Positions 15,317-40,294 of a stretch of DNA of 64,000 nt are shown in pieces. The position numbers and the translations under genes were made by a program. The stretch's first letter is position 1. Every line of letters starts with the position of its first letter. Source of the DNA: Flavobacteriales bacterium (GTDB taxonomy: Bacteria; Bacteroidota; Bacteroidia; Flavobacteriales_E; Vicingaceae); assembly GCA_013359255.1 (NCBI GenBank), contig JABWCF010000008.1, positions 124,001 through 188,000 of the forward strand, in the 5' to 3' direction. The notes beneath the pieces are model-generated. The model did not search any database. It saw nothing but the letters and a program-made list of their open reading frames with translations, and was not told where the DNA came from.

Positions 15317-16510
15317 ATGCTAAAAGGCAAGAATATCCTGCTGGGTATAACGGGAAGTATTGCCGCCTATAAATCACTTTTTTTAATCAGGCTTTTAGTT
15401 AAAGAAGGAGCCAACGTAAAGGTTTTACTCACTCCTTCTGCAAAAGAATTTGTTACGCCTTTAACAGTGTCTACTCTTTCGCAAAACCCTGTATATGCCG
15501 ATTTTTATAACCTAGAAACAGGTGAGTGGAATAGCCATGTAGAACTTGGTTTATGGGCAGATATGATGCTGATTGCCCCGGTTACAGCCTCTACCCTTTC
15601 CAAAATGGCTTACGGGGCAGCCGATAATCTACTTATTACCACCTATCTTTCTGCCCGCTGCCCTGTATTTTTTGCTCCGGCTATGGATTTAGATATGTAT
15701 AAACACCCTTCTACCATAGCAAACATAAGTTCTCTTGAGCGGTTTGGAAATATATTCATAAAACCAACGAGTGGAGATTTGGCAAGCGGACTGGTTGGAG
15801 AGGGCCGTATGGCCGAACCCGAAGAAATAATTGATATTTTAAGAAAATACAAAAATAGTGGAGCTCTTAGCGGAAAAAAAGTAATGGTTTCGGCCGGTCC
15901 AACATACGAAAAGCTAGACCCGGTCCGTTTCATTGGTAACTTTTCATCGGGATTAATGGGAATAGAATTGGCAAAAGAAGCAGAAGCCCTAGGAGCGGAA
16001 GTAACACTTGTTTGCGGCCCCACTCACTTAGAAATGCCCGAACATATTCAGGTTATCAGCGTAGTATCGGCCGAAGAAATGGCAAAGGCTTGTTTCGAAC
16101 ATTACAAAGAAGCCGACATCGCTATTATGGCTGCAGCAGTAGCTGATTACACCGTAAAAGAAAAAAGCAATACCAAAATAAAGAAAAAAGCCAACTCTTT
16201 ATCTTTAACTCTTATTCCTACAACCGATATTTTATTTGAAATGGGAAAAAGAAAAAAAAACAATCAATTTTTAGTTGGTTTTGCCCTAGAAACCGAAAAT
16301 GAACTTGAAAATGCAGAGAAAAAACGCATCGAAAAAAATGCCGATATGATTGTGCTCAATTCATTAAATACTCCGGGAGCAGGTTTTTCTAAGCCAACCA
16401 ATCAAGTGGTTATGTTAACAAAAAACGGAGAGCAAGTATCCACTCAATTAAAAAACAAAAAAGAAATAGCGAAAGAAATTTGGCAAACTGTAGTAAATTT
16501 GGTAAAATAA
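15317..16510 (+). CDS. coaBC: bifunctional phosphopantothenoylcysteine decarboxylase / phosphopantothenate--cysteine ligase
   Basis: 397 residues, two successive steps in coenzyme A synthesis. The N-terminal CoaC flavoprotein domain (1-180) has LLGITGSIAAYKS, WNSHVELGLWADMMLIAPVT (catalytic His in SHVEL) and FFAPAMDLDMYKHPST (the PAMNxxM-type substrate clamp, here PAMDLDM). The C-terminal CoaB domain (about 190-397) has KVMVSAGPTYEKLDPVRFIG, NFSSGLMGIELAKEAEALG and AAAVADYTVKEKS. The enzyme is FMN-dependent. Its stop codon shares one base with the next gene's ATG, so translation is coupled. Confidence 0.96.
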   Translation: MLKGKNILLGITGSIAAYKSLFLIRLLVKEGANVKVLLTPSAKEFVTPLTVSTLSQNPVYADFYNLETGEWNSHVELGLWADMMLIAPVTASTLSKMAYGAADNLLITTYLSARCPVFFAPAMDLDMYKHPSTIANISSLERFGNIFIKPTSGDLASGLVGEGRMAEPEEIIDILRKYKNSGALSGKKVMVSAGPTYEKLDPVRFIGNFSSGLMGIELAKEAEALGAEVTLVCGPTHLEMPEHIQVISVVSAEEMAKACFEHYKEADIAIMAAAVADYTVKEKSNTKIKKKANSLSLTLIPTTDILFEMGKRKKNNQFLVGFALETENELENAEKKRIEKNADMIVLNSLNTPGAGFSKPTNQVVMLTKNGEQVSTQLKNKKEIAKEIWQTVVNLVK

Positions 16511-17412
16511 TGAGAAAAAGATTAACATACTTCTTGCTACTTTTTTGTGTAAATAGTTTGTATGCTCAAGAGTTAAATTGTGTGGTGCAAGTAAATTCTA
16601 CTCAGGTTGCTAACGTAGAAAAAAGAGTTTTTGAAACTTTACAAAAGGCAATATTCGAATTTGTGAATAACCGGAAATGGACTACCGATATTTATAAAAA
16701 CGATGAGCGAATACAGTGTAATATTCTTTTAAATATTACAGAAGTAGTGAGCCAAAACGAATTTAAAGCCACAATTAGTGTACAATCCTCTCGGCCTGTT
16801 TATGCCAGTTCGTACTCCTCAACCATTATTAATCATATTGATAAGGATTTTCAGTTCAAATATGTAGAATACGAGCCCTTAGAATTTTCCGACAATGTAT
16901 TTATTAGCAACCTTACAGCAGTTCTTGGGTATTACGCATATATTATTTTGGGAGCCGACTACGATACTTTTTCGCAGAATGGAGGTACGCCTTATTTTCA
17001 AAAAGCCTTAGCCATAGTAAACTTAGCCCAGTCTGCCCCGGAGCAAGGTTGGAAGGCATTCGAAAACATAAATAATCGTTACTGGATAGCAGAAAACTAT
17101 ACTAACCAAATTTTTTCTCCTTTGCGTGAATTTATGTACAAATACCACCGGTTAGCTTTTGATATAATGGCTACCGATGTAGACAAGGGAAGAAAAGTGG
17201 CCTTTGAAGCATTAAAACTACTGGAAAAAGTACACATTCAACGTCCTGGAAATTTTCAGTTAAGTTTTTTATTTAATGCAAAAGCAGATGAAATAATTAA
17301 TCTTTTTCAAGGCTCAACCGATGCCAACGAAAAACAGGAAGTGTTGCAACTCTTAGGGAAGATAAATCCGCAGAACATTAACCGTTACCAAAAAATTTTA
17401 CAGAACAATTAA
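16510..17412 (+). CDS. porD: DUF4835/PorD-type protein
   Basis: 300 residues starting at the ATG at 16510 that overlaps the coaBC stop by one base; the frame extends 10 codons upstream but the ATG gives a proper signal peptide (MRKRLTYFLLLFCVNSLYAQ). The mature protein begins ELNCVVQVNSTQV and contains FVNNRKWTTDIYKNDERIQC, SSRPVYASSYSSTIINHIDKDF, FISNLTAVLGYYAYIILGADYD and a helical C-half. This is the DUF4835 family, whose Porphyromonas member PorD is implicated in type IX secretion; its biochemical role is unsettled. Its presence beside coaBC and recN is typical for Bacteroidota. The two T9SS cargo genes at 19.2-22.4 kb show that the secretion system is used in this organism. Confidence 0.85.
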   Translation: MRKRLTYFLLLFCVNSLYAQELNCVVQVNSTQVANVEKRVFETLQKAIFEFVNNRKWTTDIYKNDERIQCNILLNITEVVSQNEFKATISVQSSRPVYASSYSSTIINHIDKDFQFKYVEYEPLEFSDNVFISNLTAVLGYYAYIILGADYDTFSQNGGTPYFQKALAIVNLAQSAPEQGWKAFENINNRYWIAENYTNQIFSPLREFMYKYHRLAFDIMATDVDKGRKVAFEALKLLEKVHIQRPGNFQLSFLFNAKADEIINLFQGSTDANEKQEVLQLLGKINPQNINRYQKILQNN

Positions 17413-17424
17413 TCAAAATGCAGT

Positions 17425-19080
17425 ATGCTGAAAAAACTTCTGGTAAGCAACTACGCATTAATTGATTCGCTGGAGATTACTTGGGATAAAGGTTTAACAA
17501 TAATTACAGGAGAAACAGGAGCCGGAAAGTCTATTTTGCTAGGAGCATTAGGCTTGGTAGTGGGGCAGCGTGCCGATTCAAATACGCTTAAAAACAAGGA
17601 AATTAAGTGCATTGTAGAAGCCGAATTTGATTTAAGCCGTTTTGATTTAGTTCCATTCTTTGAAACAAAAGATTGGGAATATTCTAAAAACACCATTATT
17701 CGAAGAGAAATAGCACCCACCGGAAAATCGAGAGCCTTTGTAAATGATTCGCCTGTGGGAGTTTCTGATTTAAAAGAGTTGGGCGAGAAATTAATAGATA
17801 TCCACTCCCAACACGAAACATTGCTGCTTACCGAAAATTTGTTTCAACTAAAAACACTTGATGTTTTTGCAAAAAACAATACACTTCTTATTCAATACAA
17901 ACAAAATTATGCTCAGTACAAAGAATTAACTGAAGCGGTAGAAGAATTAAAACAAAGAAACCAAAAAGCACTGTTAGATATAGATTACCTGAGTTTTCAG
18001 TTTAAAGAATTAAACGAAGCTAAACTGAAAGAAAACGAAACGGATGAGCTAGAGATAGAACAAAAAATTCTTACCCATGCCGAAGAAATTAAACAAGCTT
18101 TAGCTTCTGTGCTTCACCTCTTGCAAGATTCAGAAAATAATGTCATTTCTGTTTTAGCCCAATCAAAAAATATATTCTCTACCATTGAAAATAAACTTAC
18201 AGAAACAGCGGCACTTACCGAACGTTTAAAAAGCACTATTGTAGAATTACAAGATATAGCCTTCGAAACCGAAAAACTTTCAGAGAAAGTACAATTTAAT
18301 CCTCAACGATTAGAAGAAATTAACGAACGCGTTAGTTTATTGTTTGGCCTTTTACAAAAGCACCGCTTTAAAACTATAGAAGAACTGATTCAGCTTAAAG
18401 AGAAATTACAGAATGATATTCTCGGTATTTCCTCCTTAGAAAATGAAATTTTTGAAAAAGAAATGGCCTTAAATAAGTGTACCTCCGAGTTAAACAACGT
18501 AGCCAATGCTTTAAGCAAAAGTCGCAGTAAGGCTATTAATGAACTAGAAAATGCGATATCGAAAATTCTTTTACAGATAGGTTTGGTAAATGCAACATTT
18601 ACCATTTATATGGAAGCAAGTACAGAGTTTTTGCCAAATGGTTTAGATAAAGTAACCTTCTTTTTTTCTGCAAACAAAGGAGTAGAACAGTCACCGCTAC
18701 AAAAAGTAGCATCGGGAGGAGAACTCAGCAGAGTAATGTTGGCCATAAAATCGGTAATTGCACAAAGTAGTTTGCTTCCTACAATTATTTTCGATGAAAT
18801 AGACACAGGTATTTCTGGAGAAACAGCTGATAAAACTGGAAATATCTTAAAGGAGATGGCAAATAATATTCAAGTAATTGCCATTACACATCAGGCTCAG
18901 ATTGCCGCCAAAGGCAATACGCATCTTTTTGTTTACAAAGAAACCACTGAAAGTAGCACACGCTCATTAATCCGAAAACTGAATAGTCAGGAAAGAATAG
19001 AGGAGATTGCTAAAATGTTGAGTGGAGAAAAAGTTAGCAAAGCGGCTATTGAAAATGCAAAGCAATTATTGAAAAATTAA
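17425..19080 (+). CDS. recN: DNA repair protein RecN
   Basis: 551-residue SMC-like ATPase acting early in double-strand break repair. The N-terminal head has the Walker A motif TGETGAGKSILLGALGLV and the family marker GQRADSN. A long coiled-coil region (about 155-375) carries many Glu/Lys heptads. The C-terminal head has the signature ASGGELSRVMLAIKS, Walker B TIIFDEIDTGISGETAD and the His loop AITHQAQIAAKGNTH. Length and order are standard. Last gene of the bamD run; no obvious hairpin terminator follows in the 114-base gap. Confidence 0.96.
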   Translation: MLKKLLVSNYALIDSLEITWDKGLTIITGETGAGKSILLGALGLVVGQRADSNTLKNKEIKCIVEAEFDLSRFDLVPFFETKDWEYSKNTIIRREIAPTGKSRAFVNDSPVGVSDLKELGEKLIDIHSQHETLLLTENLFQLKTLDVFAKNNTLLIQYKQNYAQYKELTEAVEELKQRNQKALLDIDYLSFQFKELNEAKLKENETDELEIEQKILTHAEEIKQALASVLHLLQDSENNVISVLAQSKNIFSTIENKLTETAALTERLKSTIVELQDIAFETEKLSEKVQFNPQRLEEINERVSLLFGLLQKHRFKTIEELIQLKEKLQNDILGISSLENEIFEKEMALNKCTSELNNVANALSKSRSKAINELENAISKILLQIGLVNATFTIYMEASTEFLPNGLDKVTFFFSANKGVEQSPLQKVASGGELSRVMLAIKSVIAQSSLLPTIIFDEIDTGISGETADKTGNILKEMANNIQVIAITHQAQIAAKGNTHLFVYKETTESSTRSLIRKLNSQERIEEIAKMLSGEKVSKAAIENAKQLLKN

Positions 19081-27990: not shown

Positions 27991-28824
27991 ATGCCATATC
28001 TTAAAGTATCTTTTTTGTTAAAGAGTAATAAAATTCTTTCGGAAATATTAATAGCAGAGCTATATGAACAACAATTCGATAGTTTCGAAGAAACACAAGA
28101 AACACTTAATGCCTATATCTGTAAAAGCTTTTTTAATGAAAAGAATTTGACAGAGCTATTGAATATCAATCCTCTTTTTTCAGGTCTAAATTATACGATA
28201 GAAGAAATACCCGATAAAAACTGGAATGAACTTTGGGAGAAAAGTTTTGAACCTATTGTGGTAGCCGAAAAATGCATTATAAAAGCACCTTTTCATCAAC
28301 TAAAAAAGAGTTATCCTATAGAGTTGATAATAGAGCCAAAAATGTCGTTCGGAACAGGGCATCACCAAACCACAGCATTAATGATAGAACAAATGTTAGG
28401 AATAAACTTTAAAAATAAGAAAGTGCTCGATATGGGTTGTGGCACCGGAGTACTGGCTTTTTTGGCCGAAAAATTGGGGGCTGCACAAATTATGGCTATC
28501 GATAACGATGAATGGGCGTACTATAACTCTTTAGATAATAAGGCGTTAAATAATTCAGAGAAAGTACAAGTCGAATTGGGAAATGCCACTTATTTGATTG
28601 ATAAAACATTTAATACGATATTAGCAAATATAAACCGAAATATTTTGTTGCTAGATATGCATTTGTATGCCAACTGTTTAACATTAAACGACCAACTACT
28701 AATAAGCGGTTTTTTTAAAACCGATAGCCCTGTGCTTATCGAAAAAGCAAAAGAATATGGATTTTGTTTACAAAATGCATCATATCAAGAGGAGTGGGCG
28801 TGTTTATTACTAAAAAAAGAATAG
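27991..28824 (+). CDS. prmA: ribosomal protein L11 methyltransferase
   Basis: 277 residues from the ATG at 27991 (the frame is open a little further into tpiA). PrmA methylates ribosomal protein L11 with S-adenosylmethionine. The N-terminal L11-binding domain is followed by IIEPKMSFGTGHHQTTALM, VLDMGCGTGVLAFLAEKLGA (SAM site), DNDEWAYYNSLDN and TILANINRNILLL, the NxxxxxL-type active-site segment. The protein is complete. It sits one base after tpiA and two before the next gene, so it is tightly coupled. Confidence 0.93.
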   Translation: MPYLKVSFLLKSNKILSEILIAELYEQQFDSFEETQETLNAYICKSFFNEKNLTELLNINPLFSGLNYTIEEIPDKNWNELWEKSFEPIVVAEKCIIKAPFHQLKKSYPIELIIEPKMSFGTGHHQTTALMIEQMLGINFKNKKVLDMGCGTGVLAFLAEKLGAAQIMAIDNDEWAYYNSLDNKALNNSEKVQVELGNATYLIDKTFNTILANINRNILLLDMHLYANCLTLNDQLLISGFFKTDSPVLIEKAKEYGFCLQNASYQEEWACLLLKKE

Positions 28825-28826
28825 CA

Positions 28827-31800
28827 ATGAAAAACATCAAAAAATATTTTCTGTTTGTGTTTCTGCTTCCTCTCTATTCTTTGGCACAACAATCTTCTAT
28901 TAAGGTATTTTCAAGCGATTCGGTTAAATACGTTGAAGAAATGAAAATCTTTTTAAGTGAAGCCAGAAAAGACGAAGCAAAAGATTTTATGAAAGAATTT
29001 CAGAAAAGTTGGTATGGAGGAAAGTTCAGCCAAAAACAAAGAATGGGGGTTTATCATATTTCCAACGTGATGTTAGAAAAAAAAATGAGACCCTTTCCCG
29101 ATTTTGTAAATTACTTAAATACCGTAGTAAGTTTTGTACTTAGTCCTTACCAAAATCAGGAAAGTTTCGATGTATGGCAAGAAATAGTTGAAAAACTGAT
29201 TGGAGGAAAAAGCAGAAAGAGTAAACAAATGTATGCCGATTACATTGAGGTGTGCAATAATTTGTTTAGCGAAAATTTAATGTATAAATCGGAGGCTGTT
29301 TCCTGGACAGCTAGTAACAGCAACTACATTTTCGAGTTCGACACCGTTCCGGTTATGATATTCCCTTCACTGAATTTAATTTGCTTTGCCAAAGGCGATA
29401 GTGCAATTATTTACAACACAAAGGGCGTTTTTTATCCTACCGAAAATCTTTGGGTAGGCGAGGGTGGAAAAGTGGATTGGAGAAGAGCCGGTCTTAATTC
29501 GAATGAAGTGTATGCAGAGATAGGAAAGTATAAAATCAGAATGAAATCTTCCGACTTTAGTGTAGATTCCGTTACTTTCTTCAACACACATTATTTTAAA
29601 AAACCTCTTGTCGGAAAACTTACCGAAAAAGTAATGGCCAATATAACCGAAGAAAGTGCCACCTACCCTCGTTTCGATTCGTACAGTAAACGAATACAAA
29701 TTAAAAATATTGCCGAAAATGTAGATTACGAAGGCGGTTTTTCTATGCAGGGAGCAAAGTTTGTGGGTAGAGGCAACAGCGAACAAGATGCCTATCTATA
29801 CTTCTACCGAGATAAAAAGAAATTTATTACTATCGCATCTAAAGCCTTAGGTATAAGAAACACAAAGTTTGCCTCCGATTTAGCCTCAGTAACAATTTAT
29901 TTAGAAGGAGATTCTATTTACCACCCCGGATTAGACTTTAAATATTTAATAGATAAAAAAGAATTAACCCTTTTTAGAGATAATAAGGGGATTTCCATTT
30001 CACCTTATTTCAACTCATTTCATAAACTCGATATGGAATTTGAAGAACTATCTTGGAAAATAGACGAACCCTTTATTCGCTTCGGGCACATCAGCACAAA
30101 ATCCGATGCACACTTTGAATCCTCTAATTACTTTAAATTACAACGCTACGAACAGTTACAAGCATTAGACGATATACACCCTCTCGTAAAAGTAAGAGAT
30201 TTGGCCAACAAGTTAAAAACAAATTCTCTTTCGGTAGATCAACTTTCTTCTCATCTCCGTTTATCCGAAAATCAAACCGAATTATTCCTTATTCTGCTTT
30301 CCAACAAAGGCTACGTAATGTACGATTATAAAAATAAAATGTTTACCGTAAAAGATAAACTACATAACAGTGTAATGGCTCGCTCAGCCAAGGTAGATTA
30401 CGATGTAATTGAATTCAATTCTGATATTTCTACCGAAAATGCCAAACTAAATCTGCTCAATTTCGACTTAACTATTTACGGTATTAAATCTATCCTTTTA
30501 AGTGATTCGCAACAGGTTTATATTTTTCCGCTCAACGATAAAATTGTAGTAAAGAAAAACAGAGATTTTACCTTTTCAGGGATTATTCGTGCAGGTAAGT
30601 TCGATTTTTACGGAAAAGAATTTGCCTTTGAATACGACAACTTTAAAATAGAGCTTATCAATGTTGACTCACTTAAAATGTGGGCTACCACAGGCAAAAA
30701 AGACGAATATGGAAACAATATTTTAACACCGGTAAGAACCGTTATTGAAAAAATACAAGGAAATTTATTAATCGATAACCCCTTCAATAAATCGGGTAAA
30801 AAAGATTATCCCGAATTCCCTGTGTTAAACAGCTTTAAAGAATCGTTTGTGTTTTACGATAAAAAAAATGTACAAAATGGAGTGTATAAGCGAGATAATT
30901 TCTACTTCAAAGTGTATCCCTTTAAAATCGATAGCTTAGATAATATGACCAACGAGCAACTACGCTTTAATGGTTTATTTGCATCGGCCGGAGTATTTCC
31001 CGATTTCGAAGAAACATTAACCCTTCAACCCGACTATTCTCTCGGATTTATCAGAAAAACACCACCCGATGGGTATGCTATGTACGGTGGAAAAGGGACA
31101 TTTTACAACAACATAAACCTTAGTAATAAAGGATTAAGAGGCGATGGAAAGTTAGAATACATTACCTCCACCACGTATTCTAACGATTTTGTTTTTCACC
31201 CCGATTCGATGTTTACCCGTGCACAGGCATTTGATATTGCCGAACAACAAACCGGAGTGGAATTTCCTCCTGTAAGAGGTGATGATGTTAATGTGCGTTG
31301 GTATCCCAAAAACGACCACATGAACACTTTCAGCATAGATAAGCCGATTACCATGTACGAAAACAAATCGAACCTTTCAGGAAAATTGCGTTTAGCCCCG
31401 AATGGTTTAACCGGTAAAGGTTTATTTAGTTTCGATAAGGCTGAAATGACTGCCGATTTGTACAAATTCAAACATGTAGAATTTGAATCGGATACAGCTG
31501 ATTTTAGATTGAAAGATGAGGTAAGTACCGATGCCATCACTTTTGCTACCAAAAATGTTCAGGCATACATTACTTTTAAAGAACGTTACGGGCAGTTTCG
31601 TTCCAATGGAGGCGGTTCTTTTATAGAATTTCCGCAAAACCAGTACATCTGCTTTATGGAAGAATTTAAATGGTTTATGGATAACGATGATATAGAATTG
31701 TCTGCCTCTAAGGCATCGGCCGAAGATGCCTCTGGGGTAAAACTTGAAGGCTCACAATTTATATCTACTCACCCTAAACAAGATTCTCTATCTTTCTTCG

Positions 31801-33275
31801 CTCCATCGGCTCGTTACGATTTGCGTAAACATATTATCTATGCCAAAAAAGTGCGTTTTATGCAAGTGGGCGATGCCATGATTTACCCCGATAGTGGAAA
31901 AGTAACCATTTACGAAAAAGCAAAAATGGAAACTCTAAACAACGCCAGAGTGGTAGCAAGTTACGTAACGCAAAATCATAAAATGTACAATGTTACTGCC
32001 GATGTATTTGGTAAAAGGAGCTTTTCTGGAAACGGTTACATCGATTATATTGATGAAACCGGAGGCAAACAAACCATCTATTTAGCTACTATTGGAGTAG
32101 ATACAACTGGACAAACCTACGCATCTGGGGCTATTGAAAAAGAAACCAATTTCTCATTAAGTCCGCAGTACGATTACCATGGAAGAGTCTTTATCAATTC
32201 AAACAACGAATTTATGACTTTCAGAGGGTTTACCCGTATCAAGCATGATTGTGATTTGCTAAACAAAAACTGGTTCTATTTCAATTCGGAAATTAATCCC
32301 AATGAAATTTTTATTCCTATAGATTCTGTACTTACCGATGAAGATGATAATAAACTTACAGCTAGTGTTATGCTAAGCAAAGACTCTGTGGGCATCTATT
32401 CGGCCTTTGCAAATAGAATACTAAAATATAGCGATGCTAAAGTGTTGCCCGCATTTGGGTATATGTTTTACGATAAAGAATTAAAGGAATATAAAATATC
32501 GAACAAGCTAAAAATAAACTCAATTTCCTATCCGGGAAACTATCTTAGCTTAAATACAGAAACCTGTAAAATATATGGAGAGGGCAAAATGGATTTAGGT
32601 GTAAAAACAGGACAATTAAAGATAGAGACCTCTGGGAATGTGGTACACAGCCAGCTTGATAATACAGCCGTTTTTGACATGGTTATGATAATCGATTTCT
32701 TCTTTCATAACAACGCCATGGAAAAAATGGCTTCTCAAATAAACGAAAAAACATCGTTAGACCCTGTGGAATACGAACGACCTGTTTTTGAGAGAGCATT
32801 AAGAGAGCTGATGCCTAAAGAAGAGGCGGATAAAGTCATTTCGCAATTAAGTCTAAACGGTACCCTAAAAAGAACTCCCGATGTGCTAAACAAAAGCATT
32901 GTAATAACTGATGTGAAATTTAAATGGATTAAAGAAAAAAATTCTTATAAATCAATAAGCCGAATTGGTGTGGCAAATATTTTAAAAGAACAAGTTAATA
33001 AATACGTAGAAGGAACAATAGAAATAGTAAAAAAACGCAGTGGAGATATTGTAAATATTTATTTAGAAATTGACCCAAATAATTGGTACTTCTTTTCATA
33101 TACCAGAGGAGTTATGCAAGCCATTTCCTCAAACGATCCTTTTAACAATTACATACAGGAACTTAAACCCGATAAACGAAAAATGGAAGTAACAAAAGGG
33201 CAGGAGCCCTATCAGTTTATGCTTTCTACGGTACGTAAAAAAACAGATTTTTTAAAAGGAATAGACAACGAATAA
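28827..33275 (+). CDS. 1482-residue exported protein of unknown function
   Basis: I use the ATG at 28827, giving a clean signal peptide (MKNIKKYFLFVFLLPLYSLAQ); the frame is open 21 codons earlier. After a helical N-terminal 130 residues the protein is overwhelmingly beta: about 1100 residues of alternating short strands, with repeated blocks such as GGFSMQGAKFVGRG, GKFDFYGKEFAFEYDNFKI and GTFYNNINLSNKGLRGDGKLEY, a pattern reminiscent of AsmA/TamB or LptA-like groove proteins. There is no membrane helix, no T9SS tail and few Cys. I cannot assign a family. It lies in frame-tight order between prmA and plsY (2 and 3 base gaps), so it is probably expressed with phospholipid synthesis; a role in envelope lipid handling is only inference. 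Confidence 0.8.
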   Translation: MKNIKKYFLFVFLLPLYSLAQQSSIKVFSSDSVKYVEEMKIFLSEARKDEAKDFMKEFQKSWYGGKFSQKQRMGVYHISNVMLEKKMRPFPDFVNYLNTVVSFVLSPYQNQESFDVWQEIVEKLIGGKSRKSKQMYADYIEVCNNLFSENLMYKSEAVSWTASNSNYIFEFDTVPVMIFPSLNLICFAKGDSAIIYNTKGVFYPTENLWVGEGGKVDWRRAGLNSNEVYAEIGKYKIRMKSSDFSVDSVTFFNTHYFKKPLVGKLTEKVMANITEESATYPRFDSYSKRIQIKNIAENVDYEGGFSMQGAKFVGRGNSEQDAYLYFYRDKKKFITIASKALGIRNTKFASDLASVTIYLEGDSIYHPGLDFKYLIDKKELTLFRDNKGISISPYFNSFHKLDMEFEELSWKIDEPFIRFGHISTKSDAHFESSNYFKLQRYEQLQALDDIHPLVKVRDLANKLKTNSLSVDQLSSHLRLSENQTELFLILLSNKGYVMYDYKNKMFTVKDKLHNSVMARSAKVDYDVIEFNSDISTENAKLNLLNFDLTIYGIKSILLSDSQQVYIFPLNDKIVVKKNRDFTFSGIIRAGKFDFYGKEFAFEYDNFKIELINVDSLKMWATTGKKDEYGNNILTPVRTVIEKIQGNLLIDNPFNKSGKKDYPEFPVLNSFKESFVFYDKKNVQNGVYKRDNFYFKVYPFKIDSLDNMTNEQLRFNGLFASAGVFPDFEETLTLQPDYSLGFIRKTPPDGYAMYGGKGTFYNNINLSNKGLRGDGKLEYITSTTYSNDFVFHPDSMFTRAQAFDIAEQQTGVEFPPVRGDDVNVRWYPKNDHMNTFSIDKPITMYENKSNLSGKLRLAPNGLTGKGLFSFDKAEMTADLYKFKHVEFESDTADFRLKDEVSTDAITFATKNVQAYITFKERYGQFRSNGGGSFIEFPQNQYICFMEEFKWFMDNDDIELSASKASAEDASGVKLEGSQFISTHPKQDSLSFFAPSARYDLRKHIIYAKKVRFMQVGDAMIYPDSGKVTIYEKAKMETLNNARVVASYVTQNHKMYNVTADVFGKRSFSGNGYIDYIDETGGKQTIYLATIGVDTTGQTYASGAIEKETNFSLSPQYDYHGRVFINSNNEFMTFRGFTRIKHDCDLLNKNWFYFNSEINPNEIFIPIDSVLTDEDDNKLTASVMLSKDSVGIYSAFANRILKYSDAKVLPAFGYMFYDKELKEYKISNKLKINSISYPGNYLSLNTETCKIYGEGKMDLGVKTGQLKIETSGNVVHSQLDNTAVFDMVMIIDFFFHNNAMEKMASQINEKTSLDPVEYERPVFERALRELMPKEEADKVISQLSLNGTLKRTPDVLNKSIVITDVKFKWIKEKNSYKSISRIGVANILKEQVNKYVEGTIEIVKKRSGDIVNIYLEIDPNNWYFFSYTRGVMQAISSNDPFNNYIQELKPDKRKMEVTKGQEPYQFMLSTVRKKTDFLKGIDNE

Positions 33276-33951: not shown

Positions 33952-36900
33952 GTGGTACTTAAAAAAACATACACACTCATTTTTCTCTTGTACTTATGCG
34001 TACCCGTAATCACTATTGCTCAGTTTAACTCGGAAATAGAATTAAAAAAAGAAGCTGAAAAACTCTTTGCAGAAAAAAAATATACTGAAGCCATGCCACT
34101 TTTCGGCCAACTAGCCAGTTTATATCCTAAAGATGCCAACTACAATTTTAAGTACGGAGCATGCCTTATTTTTGGCGATAAAGACAAAGAAAAACCCTTA
34201 CGTTTTTTACGTTTTGCCGTTTCTAAACCCGAGGTAGATCCATTGTCTCATTATTTTATGGGTAAAGCATTGCACCTAAATTATTATTTTAAAGATGCGA
34301 TAGAAAGCTATTCAAAATTTATTGCAAAAGTTCCGGCTAAAAACCGTGCAGACTATAATGCAGAACGAGAAATAGAAATGTGTCGGAATGGTATTAAATT
34401 ACTAAGCGATATTAAAGACGTTGATGTGGTAGGGAAAAAAGAAACACGCAAAGACGAGTTTTACCGCACTTACGATTTAAAAGGTGTTGGCGGAAAAATA
34501 GTGGCCAAGCCAGATGATTTTCGTTCTAAATACGATAAAAAACTAAACGATTATTCTGTAATATACTTGCCCAAAAATTTAAAAAATGAAGTTTTTTTTG
34601 CCAGCTACGGAGAAGATGGAAAAAGCGGAAAAGATATTTATAAGGTACTGCGATTGCCCAATGGAGAATGGGGGAAGCCTGTTAGTATTGGTGCTCCCAT
34701 AAATACACCTTACGATGAGGATTTTCCGTTTATGCACCCCGATGGAAAAACTCTCTACTTCTCTTCCAAAGGGCACAATAGCATGGGAGGATACGATATT
34801 TTTAAAACCGTATTTAACGAGAATACCAATACATGGTCCACTCCTCAAAATTTAGACTTTGCATACTCATCTCCCGATGACGACTTTTTTTTCGTTACCG
34901 ATGAAGACATGACACTGGCTTATTTTGCCTCTTCTCGTGCCAGCAAAGAAGGAGAAATTACCGTTTACCGTGTAAAGGTTCAGCCGAAATCGGCCGATTT
35001 TGTAATTATAAAAGGCGAATTTATAAACGAAGGAAACCCGCCCATGCGTACAGCCAAAATTACAGTCACCGATTTATCGAACAACCAAAATATGGGCGAG
35101 TATTTTACAAATACCAGTTCCGGAAAATACGCTATTTTGCTTCCAGGAAAGGGTGGAAAATACAAGTTTGCTATTGAAACTACCGAAACAGCACCCATTC
35201 ACAGCGGAATGGTTGAAGTACCCAGGCAGCAAGATGAGGTGGTAGCTCTTAAACAAGAGCTAAGATTAGTGGGTAAAGGCGACAATGAAAAATTAGTTAT
35301 TAAAAACTTATTCGACCAAACAGAAGCCTTTGATATAAACGACCCATTGTTGGTAGAAAGCATTATTCGACAAAAAGCCAAACTCGATATTAACGCTACC
35401 GAAGCGCAAGTGCTTGCATCGGTACAGGAATTGCAAGAAGATAAAAACAAAAATACCGAAACGAAAGAAGCTCCTCGAGCGGATGAGTTTAAAAACTTTT
35501 CGAACAACGATATTGCAGAGAAAGCAAAAATGATTGAAAAAGAACTGAAACAAAAAATTGATACACTGCAAAACGAGTCGAACTATGCGTATTCTGTTTC
35601 TAACGGAAAAAGCAGACAAGCCAAAGAAAATTCAGATAAGGCAGATAAAATACTGAATTCATTAGCCAGCTACAGTGCTACCGACAGATCTATGAAAGAA
35701 AATGAAGCTCAGCTTTTAAAAGAAGAGGCTCGCAAACTTAGCAGAGAAGCTTTAGCTGCTAAAAAAATAGCCGCTTCCTTAGATAACGATATTGCAGAGC
35801 TTACCTCAGAGTTTAATACAGTATCGCAGTTGGCTTCAGCCATACAGTACGATATTTCGGCTAACAATAGAACAGCGGCTATTGATAAATTAAAAAAACA
35901 ACAAGAACTAATAGCTTCAATAAACCAAACCCCTACTTCTAAAACCATAGAAAAAAACTCGTTGGCAGAAAAGGCGAAACAATCTAAAGCAGAAACTGAA
36001 AAAGTTGAAAATAACTTGAGCGAATTAGCCGAACGTAAAAACGATATTGAAAAAGAAATAATGCAGTTAAACTCGCAACTTTCAACCGCTAAAAAGAAAG
36101 ATAAAGAAGAGATTGAAGCAAAACTAAAAGCGTTGGAAATAGATAAAGAAGATATTACATACCAATACGAAGATGAGCAAAAAAGAGCGAGTGTATTAAA
36201 AGAAGAGTCTAATAAGTTAGAGGCCGAATTAGCACAATTCGAAGCTGTTTCTAAGCAAGTAGAAGAAAATAAAACCGTAGTTTCTCCGCCAACGCTACAA
36301 CAAAAAACGGAAACAGAAACCACCATTGCCCGATTAGAAGAAAAAGGATTAACCACCTTACCGGCAGAATCTAAATCTGAGCAAAAATCAACTGAAACAA
36401 AATCAGACAAGATTGATTTGCTTACCTTAAAAAATGATTATGATATTATTTCCGATGAAGGAAAAATTAAAAATTATAACAATGATTTTTCTAATCAGTT
36501 GGCAGATGTCGATAAAATTGCCGATTCTAATTTGCGTAACAATAAAATAGCCGAAATAAATAAAAAATGGGCAAATGCCATTCAACAAGAAATAGAAATT
36601 ACACAAAAGCAAATTGAGGTTTCAGAAACTCTAAACGATAAAACCCAATTAACCTCTAAGCGGAATAAGTTAATAGATTTTAAAGAACAAAAAGAGAAAG
36701 ATGCAAACTCGGCTACAAATCTTGTTGTGTCAAATCCGAATCTCTCTGAGAAATCTAATAAATCGGAAACATATACCAAAGAATTTAATCAAAAGATAAG
36801 TGAAATTCAATCAAATAAAAACTTAAACACAATCGAAAAAGAAAAAAATAAAATAAATGTTTTAAAAGAATGGAACCAGAAAATAGAAGAAGAATTGAAG

Positions 36901-39771
36901 CAGAAAAAGTCATTGGTAAGTTCAACAAAATTTGAAGAAGAAAAAATTGAAACCGAAAGAGAAATAATACAATTAGAAGAACAATACACGCAAAATCTGA
37001 AGCAAATAGAAAATTCTGAAAATGCCATTGCTCAGGTAAGTAACGAATCTGCTAGTGAAAATAATGTACAAAAAACGGAAGTTAAATCGTCAACATTTGA
37101 GGAAGTTTCAGCTATAAAATATAATCAAACTCTGGCGTACAAAAACGAAAATGCAAAACAATGGTTAGCTGAAACCAATACACTAAAACAAGAGGCTGCT
37201 TCATTAATGGCTCAGTCGGAAGTATTGCGTGAAAAAAGCGATCAAACCAATAATCCGCAAGAAAAAAATAATCTGAGTGCTCAGGCCGATGAATTAGAAC
37301 AGAAATCGGAAACAACTCAATTGCAAATTGCAGAAAAATATGCCAAAGCCAACCAAGAAGAATACCAGCGAAATAAAAATGTATTAAATAGCAATTCATT
37401 TATTAATGCCGCCAACAAATCCGATGATGCTACTATGGCAAATATGCTTAAAGAGGAAGCTGATTTTTATTTTATCGAAGCCCAAAAAATTAGAGAAGAA
37501 ATAAACGACAATATGTACTTTGCAGCGAAGAAAACAGCTTTACAAAAGGCCTACGATTACGAAACAAAAGCATTGCAAAAACAACAACAAGCCTTTGCTA
37601 TTGCAAATTATAGCGCAAGTGAAACAGAATTGGCAAATAATAATGTTTCAGAATCGAAAAATAATACAAACAATCAATCCTCATCATCTGTTGATACAAA
37701 CGAAAAATCAAATAACAACACTACCTCACAAAACAACTTAAGTGAAGTTAAAACAGAGTTAGAAGAGCAAACAGTTCCTCTAAATAAAGAAAACACCTTG
37801 CAAACAAATAATGAAGAACAGAAAAATGTAATAGAAAATACAAGTAAAGAAGGTTTCGAAAAGTATGCAATTACAACTTCCGAAATAGCCGAAAACAAAC
37901 GTGCCGAGCGATTACTGAAAGAAGCAGAAGTATTAGAACAAAAATCTGCCACACTTACCACACAAGCCTCTACTACCCGTAAAAAGAAAGAAAAAGAAGC
38001 CTTGGTTTTAGAAGCACAAAGAGCTAGTGCCGAGGCTAATTCAAAACGTAGCGAGGCTGCCGAATTGAAAGAGAGTTCAGAAGAAAAAGTGGAAGAAAAT
38101 AAATCGCTTGTTGCTGCTTCCAAAATATTGCAACAGAAGAATACCGATGCTGTGGCATCAAATAACGAAAGGCAGATGGCTTCCGGCTTATCCGATTCAG
38201 AACTTCGTGCCATCAACAATAACAGTACATATACTCAGTATGCAAAAGAAAAACAGGATGCCCGAAGATTAGCAAAGGAGGCCGAAGTAGAATACCTCCA
38301 ATCGCTTCGTTTAATGAATGAAGCAAATGAATCACAACTTAAAGCCGATGAGTTAAAACGTAAAGCCGAAGATGAATCCGATGATGTCAAAAAAGAAGAG
38401 TTGCTAAACGAGGCTGATGAGCAGGAAAATATCGCTATAAACAAAGAAAAAGAATCCACAAAACTTGCAGAAAATGCCAGAGCTAAAGAAAAACAAATCG
38501 TTTTTCATGAAAATCAGGCACAATTTGCCATAGCCGATTTAGCCCCGGAACAGGCCGACAAAATTGAAGTAGTAGAAAAAACAGCATTCTTCGATGTTGC
38601 ATTTAAAAACAGACTGGAAAAAATAGCCGAAGTACAAACAACCATTGCAGAGAATAACTCTTCTACCAATCAAAGTCAAACCACAAACGAAAATACCTCA
38701 ACCTCTTCGCAACTCAATGCTACTAATTCAACCAATACAAATCTAGTTGTACCGGGCACTCTTAGTGAAATAGCGAAAATAAAAATACCACAAAAATTAG
38801 AAACGAATATTTTTGCAAAATCAAATTCTAATCAGGCGGCATATAACAATACCAATCCTATTCCGGCAAACACGGTAGAACCGGAAGGACTTGTATTTAA
38901 GGTGCAGGTAGGAGCATTCCGAAACCCTATACCTCAGGATCACTTTAAAGGTTTTGCTCCTATAGTTACCGAACAAGGCCCAAATGGAATAACACGCTAC
39001 ACTGCCGGATATTTCAAAGACTTTTCAGTGGCCGATAATGCCAAAACCGATATTAGAGGTTTAGGTTATTCCGATGCTTTTGTGGTGGCCTTTTTAAACG
39101 GAAAAAGAATAAATATAGATCAGGCAAGGGCTATGCTTACAGGAAACCAAACATTAGCAGCCAACACAAAAGCACCGGAAAATAACAGAACAAACTCAAA
39201 TGCCACAAATACCGGTGCAAATGCCAATAATTCTGCATCGGCCAATACCAACCGTCCGCAACCCAATGTAAATAATACAAACGATGGATTTTCTACCAAT
39301 GTACAATCTATTAAAGGCTTTTTTTATACCATTCAGGTGGGTGTATATTCCGGTACTATTAAACCAACTATTTTAAATAACATCGAAAATATAAACAGCG
39401 ACAGATTGCCAAATAATCTGGTACGGTATTCTTCCGGACAATACAAAACACCAGAAGAAGCAATGACCACACGTCAGCAGATTATTGCCAAAGGAATTAG
39501 CGATGCCTTTGTAACTGCCTACATAGATGGGCAACGCTATACGGTTGACCAGGCAAGACGAATGTTAGAGCAAAATAGAACAAATGCTTTTTTAAATACA
39601 AACAACTCGGTCAACAATACGTCTTCCTCTGTTTCAAATACATCAAATACATCAAATACATCAAATACATCAAATACATCAAATACATCAAATACATCAA
39701 ATACATCAAATACATCAAATACATCAAATACACTATTAACAATACCATTTCTTCAGGCACAGCCGAAGTGA
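33952..39771 (+). CDS. PorE-like scaffold with SPOR domains: TPR, beta-propeller, carboxypeptidase-like domain, long coiled coil
   Basis: 1939 residues from a GTG at 33952 (no ATG gives a signal peptide). Order: signal peptide (1-25), TPR-type helices (about 30-160), PD40/WD40-like propeller strands (about 200-345; DEDFPFMHPDGKTLYFSSKG, GGYDIFK), a carboxypeptidase-regulatory-like beta domain (about 350-440), a very long Glu/Lys/Ala-rich coiled-coil region (about 500-1600), and SPOR domains at about 1645-1730 and 1790-1875. The first three match T9SS PorE, whose C-terminus is OmpA-like; here SPOR domains replace it. SPOR binds denuded peptidoglycan. Eleven SNT repeats (1895-1927) follow, then 12 out-of-place residues and a stop at 39769. 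A frame break near 39732 probably cuts off a third SPOR domain (39768-40016). Function in T9SS anchoring is an inference. Confidence 0.85.
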   Translation: MVLKKTYTLIFLLYLCVPVITIAQFNSEIELKKEAEKLFAEKKYTEAMPLFGQLASLYPKDANYNFKYGACLIFGDKDKEKPLRFLRFAVSKPEVDPLSHYFMGKALHLNYYFKDAIESYSKFIAKVPAKNRADYNAEREIEMCRNGIKLLSDIKDVDVVGKKETRKDEFYRTYDLKGVGGKIVAKPDDFRSKYDKKLNDYSVIYLPKNLKNEVFFASYGEDGKSGKDIYKVLRLPNGEWGKPVSIGAPINTPYDEDFPFMHPDGKTLYFSSKGHNSMGGYDIFKTVFNENTNTWSTPQNLDFAYSSPDDDFFFVTDEDMTLAYFASSRASKEGEITVYRVKVQPKSADFVIIKGEFINEGNPPMRTAKITVTDLSNNQNMGEYFTNTSSGKYAILLPGKGGKYKFAIETTETAPIHSGMVEVPRQQDEVVALKQELRLVGKGDNEKLVIKNLFDQTEAFDINDPLLVESIIRQKAKLDINATEAQVLASVQELQEDKNKNTETKEAPRADEFKNFSNNDIAEKAKMIEKELKQKIDTLQNESNYAYSVSNGKSRQAKENSDKADKILNSLASYSATDRSMKENEAQLLKEEARKLSREALAAKKIAASLDNDIAELTSEFNTVSQLASAIQYDISANNRTAAIDKLKKQQELIASINQTPTSKTIEKNSLAEKAKQSKAETEKVENNLSELAERKNDIEKEIMQLNSQLSTAKKKDKEEIEAKLKALEIDKEDITYQYEDEQKRASVLKEESNKLEAELAQFEAVSKQVEENKTVVSPPTLQQKTETETTIARLEEKGLTTLPAESKSEQKSTETKSDKIDLLTLKNDYDIISDEGKIKNYNNDFSNQLADVDKIADSNLRNNKIAEINKKWANAIQQEIEITQKQIEVSETLNDKTQLTSKRNKLIDFKEQKEKDANSATNLVVSNPNLSEKSNKSETYTKEFNQKISEIQSNKNLNTIEKEKNKINVLKEWNQKIEEELKQKKSLVSSTKFEEEKIETEREIIQLEEQYTQNLKQIENSENAIAQVSNESASENNVQKTEVKSSTFEEVSAIKYNQTLAYKNENAKQWLAETNTLKQEAASLMAQSEVLREKSDQTNNPQEKNNLSAQADELEQKSETTQLQIAEKYAKANQEEYQRNKNVLNSNSFINAANKSDDATMANMLKEEADFYFIEAQKIREEINDNMYFAAKKTALQKAYDYETKALQKQQQAFAIANYSASETELANNNVSESKNNTNNQSSSSVDTNEKSNNNTTSQNNLSEVKTELEEQTVPLNKENTLQTNNEEQKNVIENTSKEGFEKYAITTSEIAENKRAERLLKEAEVLEQKSATLTTQASTTRKKKEKEALVLEAQRASAEANSKRSEAAELKESSEEKVEENKSLVAASKILQQKNTDAVASNNERQMASGLSDSELRAINNNSTYTQYAKEKQDARRLAKEAEVEYLQSLRLMNEANESQLKADELKRKAEDESDDVKKEELLNEADEQENIAINKEKESTKLAENARAKEKQIVFHENQAQFAIADLAPEQADKIEVVEKTAFFDVAFKNRLEKIAEVQTTIAENNSSTNQSQTTNENTSTSSQLNATNSTNTNLVVPGTLSEIAKIKIPQKLETNIFAKSNSNQAAYNNTNPIPANTVEPEGLVFKVQVGAFRNPIPQDHFKGFAPIVTEQGPNGITRYTAGYFKDFSVADNAKTDIRGLGYSDAFVVAFLNGKRINIDQARAMLTGNQTLAANTKAPENNRTNSNATNTGANANNSASANTNRPQPNVNNTNDGFSTNVQSIKGFFYTIQVGVYSGTIKPTILNNIENINSDRLPNNLVRYSSGQYKTPEEAMTTRQQIIAKGISDAFVTAYIDGQRYTVDQARRMLEQNRTNAFLNTNNSVNNTSSSVSNTSNTSNTSNTSNTSNTSNTSNTSNTSNTSNTLLTIPFLQAQPK
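39634..39732 (+). repeat. 11 perfect copies of a 9-bp tandem repeat
   Basis: TCAAATACA is repeated eleven times without a mismatch (99 bp), encoding Ser-Asn-Thr repeats at residues 1895-1927 of the SPOR scaffold. It follows ordinary Asn/Ser/Thr-rich linker sequence. The unit is a multiple of three, so copy-number change lengthens or shortens the linker without shifting frame. Confidence 0.97.
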
Positions 39772-40016
39772 AAGAGTATAGGGTAAACATTGGAGAATAT
39801 GCCGATGATATACCTAATGATGTAGCAGGAGTATATTTGCAGTTAACCGGAAGAGGAATTAAATCGTACGAGAAAGGAGACAAAACAGTATATCTTATTG
39901 GTTCTTTTGATAATTTTGAAGACGCAGAAAAATTGAAAAAGGAAATGCAGGAGATGGGTATAAAAGGAGCTAAGGTAGTAACATACGTTAACGACAAAGA
40001 AACCGACTCAAAATAG
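39768..40016 (+). CDS. stranded SPOR domain (probably the 3' end of the preceding gene, frameshifted)
   Basis: 82 codons from a GTG, encoding one SPOR domain (KEYRVNIGEYADDIPNDVAG, VYLIGSFDNFEDAEKLKKEM, GAKVVTYVNDKE). It lies in the frame one base back from the preceding 1939-residue gene, overlaps its stop, and has no ribosome-binding site that I can see. Reading back in this frame gives NTISSGTAEVKEYRV, exactly the Asn/Ser/Thr linker expected to follow the SNT repeats, so an extra base right after the repeat (one A near 39732) would rejoin the genes into a protein of about 2020 residues with three SPOR domains. Real frameshift, programmed shift or assembly error cannot be told apart here. 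It could also be a genuine separate small protein, which I find less likely. Confidence 0.7.
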   Translation: MKEYRVNIGEYADDIPNDVAGVYLQLTGRGIKSYEKGDKTVYLIGSFDNFEDAEKLKKEMQEMGIKGAKVVTYVNDKETDSK

Positions 40017-40021
40017 AAATA

Positions 40022-40294
40022 ATGAATACTCAAACAGCAGAACATATAAAAACAAAAAATAAAGAAGAATTAACTTCTGCCTTAATTTTGTTTAACGATG
40101 AAGTAAATACTTTCGATTATGTAATAGAACAGTTAATAGAGTTCTGTCATCACGATGAGTTGCAGGCGGAACAATGTGCATTGATAGCCCATTTTAATAA
40201 CCAATGCATAATAAAACAAGGTAAATTCACCGATATAAAAAAGTTATTTGGCATATTATCTGATAAAGGATTAACACTTGAAATTAAATATTAA
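40022..40294 (+). CDS. clpS: ATP-dependent Clp protease adaptor ClpS
   Basis: 90-residue N-end-rule adaptor that delivers substrates to ClpAP/ClpCP. Core motifs: ILFNDEVNTFDYVIEQLIEF (substrate-binding DDxxN-type region, here NDEVNTFDYV) and AEQCALIAHFNNQCIIKQG, matching the ClpS fold, with a short flexible N-terminal tail. It begins 5 bases after the SPOR fragment and 5 before the M48 gene. Confidence 0.9.
   Translation: MNTQTAEHIKTKNKEELTSALILFNDEVNTFDYVIEQLIEFCHHDELQAEQCALIAHFNNQCIIKQGKFTDIKKLFGILSDKGLTLEIKY

Follow-up and report, generated by a model that had tools for sequence, protein, structure and literature searches.

The DNA analysed here, referred to as the window, is a stretch of 64,000 nucleotides from the genome of an uncultured Flavobacteriales bacterium (assembly GCA_013359255.1, contig JABWCF010000008.1, positions 124,001 to 188,000; G000:C2:124001-188000). 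The genome is 2.92 Mb in 34 contigs, and positions below are those of the window unless stated otherwise. On the plus strand the window contains an open reading frame (ORF) of 1939 amino acids with a GTG start (33952-39771), which is interrupted shortly after a perfect minisatellite, so that a third SPOR domain lies beyond its stop codon in another frame. The ORF has a hydrophobic N-terminus, a PD40 propeller repeat, a long body, two SPOR domains and a linker of serine, asparagine and threonine. By eye, the N-terminus looks like a signal sequence and the body like a coiled coil. The PD40 (WD40-like) repeat covers residues 248-284 (34693-34803; Pfam PF07676, E 3.8e-7). SPOR1 (residues 1647-1728, 38890-39135) and SPOR2 (residues 1790-1872, 39319-39567) were placed with home-made hidden Markov models (HMMs). 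The Pfam SPOR model (PF05036) scored 24.4 bits on a body fragment that includes SPOR1, versus 20.2 bits on the whole ORF, and no separate Pfam match is listed for SPOR2. Pfam detected no enzymatic domain in the protein at E 0.001.

The linker after SPOR2 contains the minisatellite, 11 units of TCAAATACA on the plus strand (39634-39732), read as (SNT)11. Tandem Repeats Finder gives it a period of 9, 11.0 copies, 100% match and a score of 198, which is the highest of 28 array rows in 535,809 bases of the genome; the runner-up has a score of 102. A three-unit TCAAATACA pattern, with up to 2 mismatches allowed, has no second match anywhere in the genome. The array is followed by an out-of-frame tail of 12 codons and a TGA stop (39733-39771, with the TGA at 39769-39771). 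In the -1 frame, a stretch of 145 codons plus stop is open on the same strand (39579-40016), and it reads the array as YIK units and then encodes SPOR3. This domain appears in the ORF list as an ORF of 82 amino acids (39768-40016, plus strand; HMM match 39771-39998) whose GTG overlaps the TGA of the main ORF (GTGA). A first-pass annotation of the window had described an ORF ending 12 codons past 11 repeat units and a SPOR domain one base back, and both descriptions agree with the ORF list, Tandem Repeats Finder, Pfam and an AlphaFold model. It had also predicted that restoring the frame would give 2020 residues with three SPOR domains; by arithmetic, the length of that three-SPOR protein would be 2021. 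The break position itself is outside any homopolymer.

SPOR3 barely reaches the Pfam SPOR cut-off (21.1 bits for a cut-off of 21), and of the 30 SPOR3 sequences that were aligned, 11 match Pfam SPOR at E 0.001 or better, that of the window among them. The AlphaFold model of SPOR3 has a mean predicted local distance difference test score (pLDDT) of 91.9. Its best match in the PDB is the SPOR domain of CwlC (1x60; probability 1.00, E 3.3e-3, template modelling score 0.64), with the SPOR domains of RlpA (6i05, 6i09) ranked lower and designed ferredoxin-like folds between them; no match in this structure search reached E 0.001. From the model, SPOR3 is predicted to adopt the SPOR fold. Two sequence searches of the PDB found no SPOR relatives; one gave no match at all, and the designed TIM barrel and pentatricopeptide repeat proteins that the other returned were taken as spurious.

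The single congener of the window's genus that was compared (one genome, G001, with ca. 346 kb of DNA aligned) has no break. There, the gene is one ORF of 1997 amino acids with 2.8 repeat units and no stop through the junction. The whole-gene alignment of ca. 6 kb has 447 substitutions in 5994 compared bases and one internal gap – 71 nt at the array, or 8 x 9 - 1. An additional gap of 3 nt at the end of the alignment is a product of how the sequences were cut. Substitutions are 7.5 per 100 bases overall and reach 29 per 100 bases in one segment of the body (36652-37152).

Homologues were also collected from the contigs of GTDB relatives, in a search from which the window's own genome may be omitted; the best 80 of 318 relatives were kept, and the congener is one of these 80. 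A third SPOR-type domain is in the same ORF in 76 of the 80 best homologues, 74 called by HMM, with at least three such domains each, and two (L088 and L106) by eye. These assignments rest on the home-made HMMs, and in diverged loci the third domain is sometimes best scored by the SPOR1 or SPOR2 model, or is scored weakly. Three of the other four loci end after SPOR2 (L114, L119 and L120), and the fourth is split by a stop (L051). Together with four loci from the family (L036, L038, L039 and L040), the first three make up the clean two-SPOR homologues, which end 3-10 residues past SPOR2; L038 does not differ from L120 over the region compared. In L051, apparently the same sequence as L035 from family genome G023, an in-frame TAA (2365-2367) lies beside a GAA run in the linker between SPOR2 and SPOR3. 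This is an independent detachment of SPOR3 in the same linker, in a genome of low completeness (79%). Several lineages lack the terminal SPOR domain or have it detached. A SPOR1-2 tree of 86 rows requires two changes to account for the seven two-SPOR rows, of which two are identical, with one origin also possible, and in this tree the two rows with a detached SPOR3 are separate events.

The comparison with the congener and the 76 continuous GTDB homologues upholds the first-pass proposal that the frame break strands the third SPOR domain of one protein. By that annotation's own account, the proposal would fail if homologues had the SPOR domain in a separate gene with a start of its own, and there is no such homologue among the loci examined. 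The homologous sequences strongly support a lineage-specific break of one gene, as opposed to two genes.

The explanation that we favor, with a probability of about one half, is that one nucleotide was recently lost where an expanding in-frame minisatellite ends, and that the protein was left with two SPOR domains. The ancestral gene would have encoded an exported envelope protein with a PD40 propeller, a long body and three C-terminal SPOR domains expected to bind bare peptidoglycan glycan; the recognition of denuded glycan by SPOR domains is described in PMC6895207. In this lineage the S-N-T repeat of the linker between SPOR2 and SPOR3 would have expanded by slippage from ca. 3 to 11 units, in steps of 9 nt that kept the frame, and it would then have been broken when, on balance, a single base was lost at the array's 3’ edge. 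Growth of the array here, rather than shrinkage in the congener, is presumed. The cell would make a protein with two SPOR domains, and this protein may still work, because some relatives end cleanly after SPOR2. SPOR3 would be unmade, or else made without an export signal and useless.

The age of such a mutation is limited by the sequence of SPOR3 itself. Compared to the congener, 8 codons of SPOR3 differ, and all 8 differences are synonymous, with no non-synonymous change. The neutral expectation on the window's branch is ca. 11 non-synonymous changes in SPOR3, given the transition bias observed, and the time without constraint is at most ca. 26% of that branch (95% bound, with half of the synonymous changes assigned to the window). 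The break is therefore either young or an artefact.

The most serious alternative, which we consider quite possible though short of an even chance, is that the sequence at the 3’ edge of the repeat was misassembled or miscalled in the consensus. The organism would then have an uninterrupted gene that encodes all three SPOR domains, perhaps with another copy number of the repeat. Several facts weigh on this side and against a true mutation. The break is known from one assembly, in 34 contigs, of one strain alone. The full conservation of SPOR3 suits an artefact equally well. The perfect array that the break touches is 99 bp long, a spot where short-read assembly is least safe, and since it is the strongest of the 28, the 535,809 bases contain no array of comparable score as a control for the assembler. 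Finally, the only other mid-gene break detected is at a tract of nine G (G9), a classical error site, so that both breaks sit at repeats.

On the other side, the part of the genome that was compared is nearly frame-accurate. In 273 congener genes located in the window's genome, five were flagged as frame-split and seven as having inner stops. Measured along the congener's longest ORF, three of the five splits fall within the first 44-66 codons and the seven stops all fall within the first 25, and these were judged to be over-extended starts. This leaves two genes of 273 with mid-gene frame breaks, the gene under study and an RCC1-like gene with the G9 tract, by a method that can overlook short shifts close to gene ends. 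In the reverse comparison (274 genes) no gene was split and two had stops. For the part of the genome compared, these counts speak against a generally poor assembly. The position of the break outside any homopolymer also argues against an error, as do the substitutions relative to the congener that the bases around it carry, like real divergence. An earlier, smaller count, of 71 congener ORFs, found only this gene split, with its antisense ORF counted again. In the window, an antisense ORF of 144 amino acids (39611-40045, minus strand) spans the array and SPOR3, has a counterpart of 145 amino acids in the congener, and probably mirrors the coding constraint on the sense strand.

Recoding is unlikely. 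It would consist of a -1 slip at the heptamer T_TTT_TTA (39588-39594, plus strand), with the array read through as YIK units into SPOR3 to yield a minor three-SPOR product, whether programmed or compensating for the lost base. The 0 and -1 frames overlap at 39579-39771, and within this overlap are T_TTT_TTA at 39588, which is canonical and in phase, and T_TTA_AAT at 39591, with the -1 frame open from there to the end of SPOR3. On the side of recoding, the congener lacks T_TTT_TTA, and a review describes a case in which a -1 mutation was offset by a shift site close to it (PMC5009743). However, 0.9 heptamers of the form X_XXY_YYZ are expected in 63 codons, at the rate measured over 299 long ORFs of the genome (144,998 codon positions). 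At least two have a probability of 0.23, and T_TTT_TTA alone has a probability of ca. 0.05. The RNA downstream (39595-39715) folds at -1.5 kcal/mol with no hairpin stimulator found, pseudoknots being outside the test, and the RNA after the array has a z of -1.27. In the same review, U_UUU_UUA is reported to shift much less readily in E. coli than A_AAA_AAG does (PMC5009743). Intact homologues require no shift, and the arrangement of frames is not conserved, the congener and the rest of the 76 being continuous. Recoding is disfavored because the heptamer is absent in the congener, no hairpin follows it and about one such heptamer is expected in any case; it is probably incidental. Apart from one sub-threshold match at 40048-40088, an Rfam scan found nothing. 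Of the three possibilities that the first-pass annotation had listed – real break, recoding or assembly error – the first and the last are those that retain weight.

A combination of the two mechanisms, in which the break is real and a minority of ribosomes bypass it by a -1 slip at T_TTT_TTA, has an even slighter chance than recoding as such. Most of the wall tether would then have two SPOR domains and a little of it three, and if true this would be a naturally occurring indel observed early on, together with the slip site that compensates for it. As in the indels compensated by -1 frameshifting that are described in PMC5009743, a slippery heptamer precedes the loss of 1 nt, with no stop in the -1 frame between the two. 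Unlike in those cases, no hairpin stimulator and no conservation were found here, and a shifted product is hypothetical.

The expression of SPOR3 as a separate small gene, with ribosomes re-initiating at the GTG of the GTGA overlap, is very improbable and was rejected. While the stop-start overlap is present, no homologue among the examined loci encodes SPOR3 alone with its own start, and the other detached case, L051, is due to an in-frame stop. There is no ATG before the domain in the SPOR3 frame, and no sigma-70-like promoter was found nearby, in a scan that does not cover Bacteroidota promoters. By eye the SPOR3 ORF also lacks a signal sequence, and its product would therefore remain in the cytoplasm. 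Equally hard to credit, and likewise rejected, is a phase-variable contingency locus in which repeat number toggles SPOR3, since whole units of 9 nt cannot shift the frame when gained or lost and all 19 arrays in the second linker have periods divisible by three, even though the linker is repeat-prone across the family and the genome has one more broken gene, that with the G9 tract.

The recent one-base loss that we favor has to be seen against the behavior of this linker in other genomes. Across 81 loci (the window and the 80 homologues), the linker between SPOR2 and SPOR3 could be measured in 76; it ranges from 42 to 1014 bp (standard deviation 122), compared to 126-294 bp (standard deviation 32) for the linker between SPOR1 and SPOR2. 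Arrays are found in the second linker of 16 of 76 loci and in the first linker of 6 of 81 (Fisher P 0.02, or 0.03 minus the window), counts that are not fully independent, as some loci are close relatives (L056-L058). The density of arrays per 10 kb is 12.9 in the second linker, 4.6 in the first and 2.3 in the body. Periods are divisible by three in 19 of 19 arrays of the second linker, 7 of 7 of the first and 75 of 85 of the body (37 of 37 at a score of at least 100). Since most arrays elsewhere in the gene share it, this is a property of coding arrays generally. The repeat units vary by lineage (3, 9, 15, 18, 21, 39, 45 and 159 nt), which suggests repeated origin. Among the Bacteroidota homologues examined, the last linker between SPOR domains is where in-frame tandem repeats are concentrated. 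A detached SPOR3 occurs in 2 of 16 loci with arrays and 0 of 60 without (chance by hand 120/2850 = 0.04), an association of little weight, as the window was picked for its array and the array of L051 is marginal (score 52). Taken singly, the case amounts to a common kind of gene disruption or to an artefact of assembly. The pattern surrounding it carries over, and the number of wall-binding domains and the length of the tether become a testable evolutionary variable.

Variable-number, in-frame tandem repeats in the coding linkers of bacterial proteins are a general class. The array resembles this class in being a perfect repeat of 3n nt in a flexible linker, with a copy number that differs between sister species, and departs from it in that the frame is lost next to the array, and the terminal domain with it.

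Judging by its domains, this is probably a scaffold protein of the envelope, exported and attached to the cell wall by its SPOR domains. It can be compared to the known SPOR proteins (PF05036; FtsN, DamX, DedD, RlpA and CwlC), as the Pfam model recognises SPOR1 and also SPOR3, the latter at the cut-off, and the structure modelled for SPOR3 is a SPOR fold. Unlike in those proteins, three tandem SPOR domains here end a giant propeller protein and are joined by a repeat-rich linker. The propeller region is closest, among NCBIfam models, to the OmpA-like family CHU_0125 (89.7 bits, residues 212-389) and to PorE of the type IX secretion system (77.8 bits, residues 214-372). Neither score reaches the cut-off, 620 for CHU_0125 and 600 for T9SS_PorE. 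The PorE layout is given as TPR-propeller-CRD-OmpA_C in PMC7192894. The propeller match fits the propeller of PorE, but in place of an OmpA_C-like domain the protein has its long body and SPOR domains. Pfam scans found no OmpA family in it at E 0.001, nor a match for an N-terminal TPR at that threshold, the sequence there being TPR-like by eye. The identity with PorE was rejected, and the protein is not filed as PorE, because both cut-offs failed and an OmpA_C-like domain was not found. None of the titles listed by literature searches concerns this gene, and among the papers searched none has the terms ‘SPOR domain’, ‘tandem repeat’ and ‘frameshift’ together.

Elsewhere in the window, an ORF of 1503 amino acids lies upstream of plsY (28764-33275) and has no Pfam or NCBIfam match at E 0.001. 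Outside the window, the genome encodes a paralogue of 301 amino acids (G000:C9:25149-25769, L004) in which one domain is SPOR2-like and another SPOR3-like. This paralogue is intact in both species and might share the load with the truncated protein. A large ORF on the same strand neighbours the paralogue and resembles, by eye, a secreted repeat protein. The second mid-gene break is on the same contig (G000:C9 ca. 36171-37884; L147, local ca. 16171-17884), with its G9 tract at 36927-36935. The gene is RCC1-like by eye and probably secreted, has 598 amino acids in the congener, and contains other local differences from the congener's copy; its G9 tract is a candidate for either a phase-variable tract or a homopolymer error.

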